A stretch of DNA of 13,790 nt, taken from contig DHOL01000061.1 in assembly GCA_002410755.1 (NCBI GenBank), positions 1 through 13,790 on the forward strand. Reading direction: 5' to 3'. Each line of letters opens with the position of its first letter. Position 1 is the first letter of the stretch. The position numbers and the translations under genes were made by a program. This document shows, in pieces, positions 1 to 9,242 of this stretch. Under the pieces are notes generated by a model that made no database searches, was not told where the DNA came from, and worked only from the letters and a program-made list of their open reading frames with translations. This DNA comes from Ruminococcaceae bacterium UBA5391. GTDB taxonomy: Bacteria > Bacillota > Clostridia > Oscillospirales > Acutalibacteraceae.

Positions 1-11
1 GGTGTAAAGCA

Positions 12-52
12 CAAAAAAACGCTGGATACGGACAGCGTCCATATCCAGCGTT
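12..52 (-). terminator. Strong intrinsic terminator of the small RNA
   Basis: On the minus strand a 16-bp stem (arms at 37-52 and 18-33, one U-G wobble) closes a 3-nt GCU loop and is followed directly by seven T residues (complement of 13-19). This is a textbook rho-independent terminator for leftward transcription. Confidence 0.9.
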
Positions 53-225
53 CCGAAGCACAGCACAGAACTTATTGCGGAACCCCCTGTACAAAAAGCA
101 GAACAGGCGGTATAATAAGAACCGCAATGTGCCGATTATTCGGTTGCGTATGGAGCCTAGCTCTCCGTATGCAGGAAGTAGATGTTCTAGCGTCTGCTTC
201 TGCATTGCACTTTTTGTGCCCTACA
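12..225 (-). ncRNA. Candidate structured small RNA (unidentified family)
   Basis: The minus strand has a promoter at 232-259 and an intrinsic terminator at 12-52, giving a predicted transcript of about 210 nt. The enclosed sequence is rich in self-complementarity. A 5' hairpin has GCAC/GUGC arms around AAAAA. An imperfect GCAG..CUGC hairpin lies near 176-205. A GGAG/CUCC hairpin with symmetric A-C mismatches lies near 147-173. A CGCAA/UUGCG hairpin encloses CCG/CGG near 122-148, and GUUCCG pairs with CGGAAC just before the terminator. A longer-range pairing is also possible: ACAAAAAG, CAGAA and CAG in the 5' part against the contiguous CUGUUCUGCUUUUUGU near 90-106, bridging two bulges. No protein on either strand looks real (a 63-codon plus-strand frame at 75-266 has no family look). 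I do not recognise the RNA family; 6S-like or a Clostridia ornate RNA such as raiA are possibilities only. Confidence 0.6.
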
Positions 226-231
226 AGGGTA

Positions 232-259
232 ATTATACCTCTTTTGGGAAGATAGTCAA
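232..259 (-). promoter_or_regulatory. Near-consensus sigma-A promoter for the small RNA
   Basis: The minus strand has TTGACT (complement of 254-259), a 16-nt spacer and a perfect TATAAT (complement of 232-237). Transcription should start near 224-226. The -35 region and its flanks (TCCCTTGACTATCTT) recur exactly at the promoter upstream of the acetyltransferase near 10853-10880. Confidence 0.8.
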
Positions 260-6538: not shown

Positions 6539-7522
6539 ATGAACCAGAAAATACTTGCACTGATTACCGCGTTGCTTGTCGGCGGAAACGTCAGCGCTTT
6601 TACAGTTTCCGGCAACTTAGCATCCTGCGGGACAACCCCCTCCACCTCCTGTACAGCTTCAGAGGCAGCATCCGCCTCCTGTGAAAACTCCGCAACAGTT
6701 GCCGGCACTGTAGAATCAGTGCTGAACAAGGCCGTATCCGCTGCCGCGGCAAACGGCAGCACGTCTCCCGCCTGTAAACAGAATTCCTGTGGAAACAGCA
6801 CTGCATGTGCTTCTAAGGCATCCAGTACAACTGTGGCAGGATGCGCTTCCAGCGGAAGCTGCGGCACAACTGCCTGTGCAGGAAATACGTCAGCTTCCAG
6901 CGGGAAATCCGGAAGCACAGTAATTGTCAGCGGCTCGGCCTGCACAACGAAAAACAGTCTAATTAACAGCATCCTGAATTTCGTGTGCGGTGGGAAATGC
7001 TCCGGGACGGCTTGTACACCGTCTGGACAATCATCCTCAGCGAAACCCGTTTCTTCCCAGCCCGCCGCTTCTAAGCCAACTTCTTCCCAGCCTGCCACTT
7101 CTAAGCCAACTTCTTCCCAGCAAACCGGAAGTTCCGGGTACACTGCTTTCCAAAACAAAGTCGTCCAGCTTGTAAATGCAGAACGTGCCAAGGCAGGTCT
7201 TTCCGCTCTTGCCGAAGATGCAGGGCTTATGAAAACAGCTACCATTAAATCGCAGGATATGGCACAGAATAATTATTTCAGCCATACCTCCCCAACCTAT
7301 GGTTCCCCATTTGACCTGATGAAAAAGTACGGCATCAGCTACCGCACCGCCGGAGAAAATATTGCGATGGGCCAGACTTCCCCGTCACAGGTCATGAATG
7401 GCTGGATGAATTCAGAAGGTCACCGGGCAAATATTCTGAACTCATCCTTTACGAAAATTGGCGTCGGCGTTGTTCAGAACGCAAGCGGCCGGTATTACTG
7501 GACTCAGCACTTTACCGGCTAA
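6539..7522 (+). CDS. Secreted CAP/SCP-domain protein with Cys-rich N-terminal region
   Basis: The 327-residue protein is predicted to be exported: residues 1-20 form a signal peptide ending VSA. Residues 21-160 are rich in Ser, Ala, Thr and Gly and hold 13 cysteines (30, 38, 48, 79, 84, 90, 102, 108, 113, 135, 150, 154, 159). Residues 165-198 are a Pro/Ser repeat linker (KPTSSQPATS type). Residues about 201-327 are a YkwD-like CAP domain with the conserved cavity residues His249 (FSHTSP), Glu273 (AGENIA), Glu293 and His295 (SEGHRANIL) and the terminal YYWTQHF. The CAP domain itself has no cysteine. AAGGAG lies 8 nt before the ATG. In Clostridia such proteins are extracellular or spore-associated, with poorly known biochemistry. 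The next gene encodes a wall lytic enzyme, which suggests a shared envelope role. Confidence 0.9.
   Translation: MNQKILALITALLVGGNVSAFTVSGNLASCGTTPSTSCTASEAASASCENSATVAGTVESVLNKAVSAAAANGSTSPACKQNSCGNSTACASKASSTTVAGCASSGSCGTTACAGNTSASSGKSGSTVIVSGSACTTKNSLINSILNFVCGGKCSGTACTPSGQSSSAKPVSSQPAASKPTSSQPATSKPTSSQQTGSSGYTAFQNKVVQLVNAERAKAGLSALAEDAGLMKTATIKSQDMAQNNYFSHTSPTYGSPFDLMKKYGISYRTAGENIAMGQTSPSQVMNGWMNSEGHRANILNSSFTKIGVGVVQNASGRYYWTQHFTG
7041..7120 (+). repeat. 30-bp tandem repeat in the CAP linker
   Basis: Units at 7041-7070 and 7071-7100 and a partial one at 7101-7120 share the core TTCTTCCCAG and encode the repeating KPTSSQPATS-type linker. Copy number could vary by slippage without changing the frame. 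Confidence 0.75.
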
Positions 7523-8303: not shown

Positions 8304-8429
8304 GCATCTTCCGCGGCGTCAAGTCCTGCCAGTCCTGCAAAACCAGCTTTTTCTATGGCGTCCAGCTCTGCCAGTTCTACAAAACCGGCATCCTCCGCAG
8401 CGTCAAGCTCTATTAGTTCAGCCGCAAGC
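8304..8429 (+). repeat. 42-bp triplicated repeat in the lysozyme linker
   Basis: Three diverged 42-bp units (8304-8345, 8346-8387, 8388-8429) each encode a 14-residue ASSAASSPASPAKP-like segment. They belong to the frame of the catalytic domain and start upstream of its first ATG, supporting a single original gene. Confidence 0.7.
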
Positions 8430-9242
8430 AGCTCCGGTGCTGTAAGTTCAGTCCCATCTGCACCGGTTCAGATTCCGGATGGATGGCAGTGCTTAAATGG
8501 CAGCAGATACTTTTATTATAATGGGAATCCGCTGAACGGATGGCAGACTCTTGATGACCGCAAATACATGTTTGATTCCAGCGGCAAGCTCAAGACCCGC
8601 ACCGGCATTGACGTATCATCTCACCAATCGAAAAAAGATAAATACGGAAATGTTGAACAATATATCGATTGGAATCAGGTTAAGGCTTCCGGTGTTGACT
8701 TTGTCATAATCCGCATTGGTTACCGGGGCTATGTCACCGGTTCCTACAATAAGGATCCGGATTTTGACTACAATTATTCCCATGCAAAGGCGGCGGGCCT
8801 TTCGGTTGGCGCGTATTTCTTTTCCCAGGCAATTTCCGACGAAGAGGGGGCCAAGGAAGCGGAGTTTGCCCTTGATATTCTCGGCGGCCGCAGCCTTTCA
8901 GAGCCGCTTGCGTGCGATACGGAGTATGTAAATGACACCGGCGTCCGTACGAACCTTGCCAATCTCTCTGTTTCCCAGCGCACCGATATCGTAAAAGCGT
9001 TTTGCAACCGTATAAGTTCCGGCGGGTATCGCCCAACCGTCTACGCAAGCAAATATTGGTTCTACGACGATTTGGATGTCTCTCAGTTTTCGCAATACCC
9101 AATCTGGGTTGCACATTATGTAACTGGCGCTACAGAAGATGCAAATTACCGATATCCTTATACATATTGGCAATATGCCAGCGATGGGACTGTTCCCGGG
9201 ATTCCCACTGGGATTGATGTTGATATGGATATATCGTTCTGA
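8355..9242 (+). CDS. GH25 family lysozyme, C-terminal part of the frameshifted gene
   Basis: The enzyme family hydrolyses the beta-1,4 bond between N-acetylmuramic acid and N-acetylglucosamine in peptidoglycan. From the first in-frame ATG (8355) there are 295 residues: a Ser/Ala linker (1-37), one short repeat resembling a glucan/choline-binding wall motif (about 41-80, GWQCLNGSRYFYYNG and NGWQTLDDRKYMFD), and a full GH25 domain (about 84-295). Catalytic features are Asp86 in GIDVSSHQ and the DxE pair Asp188/Glu190 in LACDTEY, with the usual ending WQYASDG..GIPTGIDVDMD. The ATG at 8355 lies inside the linker and has no ribosome-binding site. The frame is open back to 8061 with no better start. 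Translation therefore probably begins at 7840 in the other frame, making this a frameshifted gene, a sequencing error or a recoding case. The catalytic domain looks intact. Confidence 0.88.
   Translation: MASSSASSTKPASSAASSSISSAASSSGAVSSVPSAPVQIPDGWQCLNGSRYFYYNGNPLNGWQTLDDRKYMFDSSGKLKTRTGIDVSSHQSKKDKYGNVEQYIDWNQVKASGVDFVIIRIGYRGYVTGSYNKDPDFDYNYSHAKAAGLSVGAYFFSQAISDEEGAKEAEFALDILGGRSLSEPLACDTEYVNDTGVRTNLANLSVSQRTDIVKAFCNRISSGGYRPTVYASKYWFYDDLDVSQFSQYPIWVAHYVTGATEDANYRYPYTYWQYASDGTVPGIPTGIDVDMDISF

Follow-up and report, generated by a model that had tools for sequence, protein, structure and literature searches.

The window analysed here is the whole stretch of 13,790 nucleotides at positions 1 to 13,790 of contig DHOL01000061.1 (Ruminococcaceae bacterium UBA5391). 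The element lies at its left end, where a predicted leader RNA is read leftward and a second predicted RNA is read rightward from an internal promoter (Table 1). The leftward promoter, described in a preliminary description as a near-consensus TTGACT-16-TATAAT, is indeed the top-scoring of 8 sites in a promoter scan of positions 1-2600. The terminator hairpin followed by seven T was also found again, with 18 pairs counted against the 16 claimed. As had been stated, no protein gene accounts for the stretch: among ORFs of at least 80 aa, the overlap consists of only two plus-strand frames that are open at the contig start. The plus-strand promoter-like site at 88-116 was absent from that reading.

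The 217-nt minus-strand stretch folds at -87.5 kcal/mol (z -6.4), and none of 200 shuffles was as good. We named the two arms of P3 in the leader A and B, and the two arms of the terminator P6 C and D. The leader contains an intrinsic terminator (P6 and its U run), as well as a segment in a 5' hairpin that matches the 5' arm of the terminator, as expected of an antiterminator. The predicted leader RNA reaches at least the U run, and would extend beyond the contig start if the terminator is read through. The window is the start of its contig, which ends just past the terminator; any gene downstream of this copy would lie beyond the contig end, so that its target is not readable.

Table 1. Positions of the promoters, predicted RNAs and helices of the copy in the window
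Feature	Position	Strand	Basis or remark
Leader promoter (TTGACT 259-254, 16 bp, TATAAT 237-232)	232..259	-	11 of 12 consensus positions
Leader RNA (predicted)	1..225	-	Start at about 225 predicted from the -10 box; extent predicted from promoter, terminator and helix P0
Closing helix P0, 5' strand	213..224	-	P0 coevolution; A run 215-211 is the template of the U tail of the plus RNA
Closing helix P0, 3' strand	4..15	-	Directly behind the U run of the terminator
Terminator hairpin P6 of the leader (arm C 54-37, loop 36-34, arm D 33-16)	16..54	-	18 pairs, then seven T
B, 3' arm of the P3 segment and its 3' flank in the leader (predicted antiterminator)	143..155	-	Complementary to arm C of P6; B:C coevolution
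A, 5' arm of the P3 segment in the leader and part of the loop	160..173	-	Weak pairing with B
Antisense promoter (TGTACA 88-93, 17 bp, TATAAT 111-116)	88..116	+	10 of 12 consensus positions
Antisense RNA, four-way junction (predicted)	about 122..216	+	-45.0 kcal/mol, z -7.3 for the fold of 122-217; both ends predicted
Helices of the plus RNA	P1 124-130/202-208; P4 131-135/140-144; P3 145-155/163-173; P2 174-185/190-201	+	
U run of the plus RNA	211-215	+	Unpaired tail in the fold
P3 loop	156..162	+	Variable between paralogues
P2 hairpin	174..201	+	Variable between paralogues, pairing kept

Between the element and a leftward gene (568-1191), the window contains an almost perfect inverted repeat (403-461, some 22 pairs), which may be a terminator and which yielded spurious microRNA-precursor matches in a relaxed Rfam scan. 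Further along, positions 6539-7522 and 8355-9242 presumably encode secreted CAP-domain-like and GH25-lysozyme-like proteins, as recognised from their translations.

Copies and spread of the element

Eight matches to the stretch were found in its own genome. One match is the terminator palindrome read on the other strand, which leaves 7 copies; contig ends truncate two of these. At the DNA level, 9 of 98 genomes searched (own genome included) contain matches. When species genomes were scanned with a 33-base pattern, 84 stretches were returned; about one third of them carry the element, and the carriers include Caproicibacter fermentans (Caproicibacter is placed in Acutalibacteraceae by NCBI, presumably also the family of the genome of the window), Caproiciproducens galactitolivorans and Amazonia massiliensis. 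In total, 39 places with distinct cores were found, and 16 further loci with the same cores were set aside. Alignment A2 holds 34 of the 39 cores, leaving out L104 (a chance match), L003, L049 and L052 (contig ends or N runs) and L112 (3' end cut).

The covariance model R1, built from the 34 copies of A2, matched 21 of 300 genomes of the family, 48 of 394 from the order and 12 of 391 from the class, counts that include the own genome and many weak matches. Copy numbers per genome are lower bounds in these scans, with at most 5-7 candidates scored per genome. When 150 candidates were scored per genome, G323 gave 18 matches, all above 130 bits, G258 gave 14 (two of them opposite-strand echoes) and G143 gave 11 weaker ones. 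Alignment A5 was made from 68 chosen loci using the first 70 of 89 matches (at least 37.8 bits); the 19 others are weak and mostly opposite-strand secondary matches. Among the 70 members, 25 rows near the sequence type of the window are called close and 45 rows, mostly from other families, are called distant, although at least six of the latter come from divergent genera of the same family (G143, G146, G326). Taken together, the stretch is one copy of a repeated element of gut-type Clostridia that is present across the order and is predicted to control genes.

The pattern ATTATAC-N14-TTTGTACAGRGG matched 90 times in the fetched loci and the window, and 33 matches have the CTCCATA of the element upstream (one of these, L104, was judged by eye to be a chance match). 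The other 57 were not counted as members, and many of those listed look to us like promoters that serve other genes, for instance hprK of Gemmiger or IS transposases. The promoter spelling CCYCTGTACAAA-N14-GTATAAT was seen in L030, L047, L101, L106 and L109 (Gemmiger); judged by eye, it stands before an apparent hprK in Gemmiger and before presumed IS transposase genes elsewhere. Such a share outside the element (57 of 90) seems above chance, and the pattern is perhaps a preferred promoter form of the order.

No Rfam 15 model matched the window at its gathering score, in line with the earlier view that the family is not a recognised one. That reading had named 6S RNA and raiA as the candidates to consider first, and neither was among the covariance-model matches at E values up to 10; these and other Rfam families were rejected for lack of a match. 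Relaxed scans of the window gave chance-level matches only, which within 1-260 fell mostly on the terminator palindrome. Riboswitch models of Rfam had no match over the element in the window, and 20 distant loci were without any match at gathering score. In the 14 G323 loci scanned, the sole match was a TPP riboswitch that does not overlap a copy. No title that we found describes this element family; the motif lists of PMC8040213 lie beyond the part of the literature covered, so that an earlier unnamed prediction is possible.

Two RNAs and an exchange of pairing partners, both predicted

Leftward promoters with at least 9 of 12 consensus positions are present in all 25 close members and in 33 of the 45 distant ones (6 and 9 percent in shuffles). 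At the same threshold, rightward promoters are found in all 25 close members and in 41 of the 45 distant ones (3 and 7 percent in shuffles), and a promoter opposing the 5' part of the leader is thus conserved as sequence. Its spacing is 17 bp in most members, and its -35 box varies (TTGACT, TTGTCA, TTGTAA, TTGCCA and others).

The stretch from P1 to P4 is more stable as plus RNA in all 70 members (P2 in 63 and P3 in 68), while P6 is more stable as minus RNA in 69 of 69. P4 alone is more stable on the plus strand in 30 members and on the minus strand in 37, with 27 for minus vs 15 for plus among the distant ones. Read as minus RNA, the cells of A2 have G.U to A.C ratios of 47:7 in P0, 118:3 in P6, 3:10 in P2 and 0:16 in P3. 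The wobbles of P2 and P3 are G.U on the plus strand, and therefore belong to the plus RNA. P1 in A2 gives 19:4 in favour of the minus strand, with 19 G.U and 2 A.C cells coming from one edge pair, and P5 gives 20:15, leaning to minus. In distant members, the same reading gives 25:12 for P0, 6:19 for P1, 6:32 for P2, 1:58 for P3, 0:4 for P4, 24:10 for P5 and 85:5 for P6. Not all helices agree in the strand test: P1 in A2, P5, and P4 in distant members lean to the minus strand.

On the plus strand, P1-P4 folds into exactly three hairpins in 68 of 70 members, and its fold has a z score below -3 in 68 of 70 members on the plus strand vs 43 of 70 on the minus strand. The minus-strand stretch between P0 and P1 is rich in A (fraction 0.70, vs 0.25 over the element; at least half A in 64 of 67), which makes the plus RNA U-rich behind P1. 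The compact fold thus belongs to the plus strand as a predicted antisense RNA of about 95 nt, a cloverleaf or four-way junction with a U tail, and the leftward RNA bears the outer helix P0, the terminator P6 and the predicted antiterminator.

The search for covarying homologues that the preliminary description had proposed found conserved copies in related genomes, and the consensus structure of A2 contains 106 double-change cells, vs 27.2 in shuffles. It is paired at 92.6 percent, vs 32-49 percent for slid versions. A2 was aligned without regard to structure, but the structure was derived from A2 itself, which favours these figures. Further pair types in A2 were no better than in shuffles (reached by 101 of 500). 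That description had viewed the unit as one dedicated, structured leftward RNA. The structured RNA with its own promoter and terminator stands, conserved and with covariation; the single RNA does not, since in every member the plus strand gives the more stable branched core (P1-P4) and a second conserved promoter, on the plus strand, precedes it. The long-range helix of 16 pairs proposed to close the core (200-217 with 90-106) was not borne out: it does not coevolve, and over the 70 members the own partner gives -4.45 kcal/mol vs -4.79 kcal/mol for the partners of other sequences.

Pairing of A with B is weak in the leader, where nearly all copies of A2 have a C.A mismatch. B can be paired with C as well, and the complementary sequences change between members: CUCCAUAC pairs with GUAUAUGGA in the type of the window, and elsewhere CACCUACAC with GUGUAGG, CACUCAGCAC with GUGCUGGG, and CACCCC with GGGGUG. 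For 65 of 70 rows (five were dropped because B or C was too short), the own B:C duplex has a mean of -11.92 kcal/mol, vs -8.76 kcal/mol for B and C of different members, and 0 of 5000 permutations, which ignore relatedness as do all of these coevolution tests, were as low. The z score is -6.6 in the 25 distant rows that differ in B. The control pairings show no coevolution (A:C z -0.7 and +1.1; B:D z +1.2 and +2.3). A:B, C:D and P0 coevolve (P0 z -16.0 over 65 rows), and A:D coevolves over all rows (z -3.9), but the signal is lost when the distant rows are taken alone (z -1.2).

Of 65 members, 42 show B:C and 15 show A:B in minimum free energy folds that end just past C; once D is included, 62 form C:D. 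In the copy of the window, the B:C duplex (-8.7 kcal/mol) is weaker than the family mean of -11.9, and the fold ended just past C gives A:B and not B:C, which counts against the switch reading.

Downstream genes, paralogues and genomic placement

Distant leaders usually precede a predicted gene, mostly one whose product looks secreted or of S-layer type. An ORF on the same strand, at least 60 aa long, with a Shine-Dalgarno-like site and a start at +235 to +480 from the -10 box, follows in 31 of 40 distant loci, vs 8 of 40 in the opposite-strand control; some of the 40 loci are closely related to each other, for example L198 and L218. By a crude rule, 20 proteins behind distant leaders appear to have signal peptides. 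A Pfam scan covered 20 of the 31 downstream proteins, and 14 of these 20 have SLH, stalk (Cu_amine_oxidN1), BspA-LRR or SH3 domains (SLH 7, Cu_amine_oxidN1 5, BspA repeats 3, SH3 1); CAP, M23, GGDEF and IS605 OrfB occur singly, and 4 are without a family. In two distant loci, L220 and L223, the leader is followed by an IS605 OrfB/TnpB-type gene, by Pfam in L220; the gene in L223, without a Pfam match, is presumably of this type by resemblance.

Among close copies, downstream ORFs are not enriched (12 of 44 vs 9 of 44 in the control; 2 of 18 vs 3 of 18 in G323), so many of them may regulate nothing nearby or do something else. At least two of them, L016 and L029, precede ORFs with signal-peptide-like starts that the ORF scan missed. 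A leader of one fixed gene was rejected for the close copies, as the flanking ORFs differ by eye.

Nine near-identical copies in G323 differ pairwise by 0.40 on average in P2, 0.54 in the P3 loop and 0.38 in the linker before P6, and by 0 to 0.16 elsewhere. The corresponding values in a second set of three copies are 0.10 for P2, 0.67 for the P3 loop and 0 to 0.23 elsewhere. Pairing is kept where P2 changes between paralogues, and the divergence of P2 and the P3 loop has the look expected of private addresses. Diversifying selection on them is not proved, because the linker varies nearly as much.

In some relatives (G323, G198 and G279), copies crowd near dnaA: 12 of 18 lie within 109 kb of it in G323 (KS p 2e-7), and all three strong copies within 147 kb in G198. 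Origin clustering as a property of the RNA was rejected as not specific, since a 600-bp flanking intergenic repeat occurs in the same places in G323, where repeats seem to accumulate as a mosaic around the origin. Several G323 copies (L160-L174) are followed, within about 250 bp, by a further repeated stretch whose arms seem to covary (CCTGCC..GGCAGG vs CCCACC..GGTGGG); no Rfam match corresponded to it in the 14 loci scanned. Genes that we take, from reading translations, to encode IS30-like transposases lie about 300-700 bp from copies at L162, L163 and L164. In the assembly of the window, contigs C24, C36 and C61 end in or at copies, as expected of a repeat that breaks assembly.

Other element types were also considered. 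Linkage to rRNA or tRNA genes was rejected (no tRNA in 18 loci, no rRNA in 14). An invertible switch and transposon ends were rejected too: P0 is an inverted repeat, yet it shows covariation, and the homology does not stop at P0 but reaches about as far as the -35 box. A plasmid or phage element was rejected, as the window copy has no blastn match to either and 4 viral stretches found by pattern are without the element. Against a type I toxin-antitoxin with a conserved small toxin ORF, hairpin lengths vary out of frame between copies, as judged by eye.

A predicted attenuator and its relation to known systems

We consider it likely that the element is a transcription attenuator controlled by an antisense RNA, of the pT181 kind. 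The minus promoter would give rise to the leader RNA, and during transcription B, weakly held by A in P3, would pair with C, the 5' arm of the terminator, allowing read-through. From the internal plus promoter, a cloverleaf RNA of about 95 nt, complementary to the P1-P4 region of the leader, would be made. Its pairing with the leader, probably starting at the P2 and P3 loops, would remove A and B, so that C is left free to pair with D and the terminator halts transcription. Distinct P2 hairpins and P3 loops would keep the RNA pair of each copy private. Comparison among members supports, at the level of sequence, both promoters, the strand-specific folds, the pairings A:B, B:C, C:D and P0, and a gene behind most distant leaders. 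We infer that both RNAs are made and pair with each other, that the antisense RNA acts as the OFF signal, and that P0 has a role.

More tentatively, and with some doubt on our part, the copies could be a large family of mutually independent antisense attenuators, each with its own P2/P3 address, so that one chromosome would run many separate RNA switches, mainly for surface proteins. In the lineage of the window the switch would have multiplied as a free-standing element, to as many as 18 copies, and would have some further use.

A riboswitch is unlikely, in which the P1-P4 junction of the leader binds a small molecule and so chooses between B:C and C:D, the opposite promoter being incidental. 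The position in a leader, the conserved junction nucleotides and the attenuator-type expression platform would suit it; however, in all 70 members the junction folds less stably as part of the leader than as plus RNA, the C.A mismatch of P3 in the leader is a G.U on the plus strand, and the plus promoter is conserved across families. The plus-strand evidence could be turned into a different proposal, that the cloverleaf is a trans-acting small RNA whose P2 and P3 loops are aimed at different targets, with the minus RNA as its antisense control. Its strong fold, its variable loops and the many close copies without a nearby gene behind them fit this quite unlikely alternative, which leaves unexplained the B:C coevolution and the ORF at 31 of 40 distant loci.

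Two further readings were weighed. Two convergent promoters are present, and polymerases might simply collide; interference is joined with attenuation in the part of the RnaG/icsA account that we consulted (PMC6597380). Collision would have no need of a conserved cloverleaf, a strand-specific fold or an antiterminator, and on its own it is very improbable. It is likewise highly improbable that the element is a non-autonomous mobile or passive intergenic repeat with palindromes that matter as DNA. Copies are many, they are set within larger repeats in G323, and three assembly contigs end at or in them. Yet such a repeat would not be expected to show covariation or two promoters with near-fixed spacing, the element is at the same place in two species (L014 and L020), and the window copy is without a plasmid or phage match.

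The antisense-controlled attenuator thus remains our preferred reading, and as such it can be set beside known systems. Riboswitches with terminator platforms also form a mutually exclusive terminator and antiterminator in a 5' leader; unlike them, the element has a conserved opposing promoter and an opposite-strand fold. To our knowledge, antisense attenuators are known mainly from plasmids, one of them being the RNAIII/repR system of pIP501. The family would point to RNA-level control of surface proteins in gut Clostridia, and its many chromosomal paralogues, differing in loops and stems, would be ready-made natural antisense pairs in which cross-talk could be measured directly.

In the passages that we consulted, pIP501 is described as a case of antisense-induced transcription attenuation (PMC5415839); by this description, the element would share the plan, while pIP501 serves plasmid copy control. 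In Shigella flexneri, the cis antisense RNA RnaG, made from an opposing promoter, is reported to lower transcription of the invasion-protein gene icsA by interference and attenuation; unlike the element, it is a single antisense RNA of 450 nt, and no family of conserved structure is mentioned in the part consulted (PMC6597380). The closest likeness is to the repC attenuator of the Staphylococcus plasmid pT181. There, as far as the consulted descriptions go, a 5' hairpin harbours an antiterminator that sequesters the terminator stem in its 5' part, until this antiterminator is withdrawn by an antisense RNA matching the 5' portion of the leader (PMC4878617), its specificity residing in the loop and upper stem (PMC4878617, PMC3753616). 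The element resembles it, in an anatomy compared by description only, in its leader with an intrinsic terminator, its predicted antiterminator in a 5' hairpin and its predicted antisense RNA to the 5' part of the leader. In contrast to pT181, it is chromosomal, recurs in many copies and is spread over an order. Its predicted antisense RNA forms a four-way junction, the leader has an outer helix P0 in addition, and what follows is mostly a surface-protein gene and not rep. As predicted from its sequence, the element is the pT181 attenuator plan in the form of a chromosomal family.
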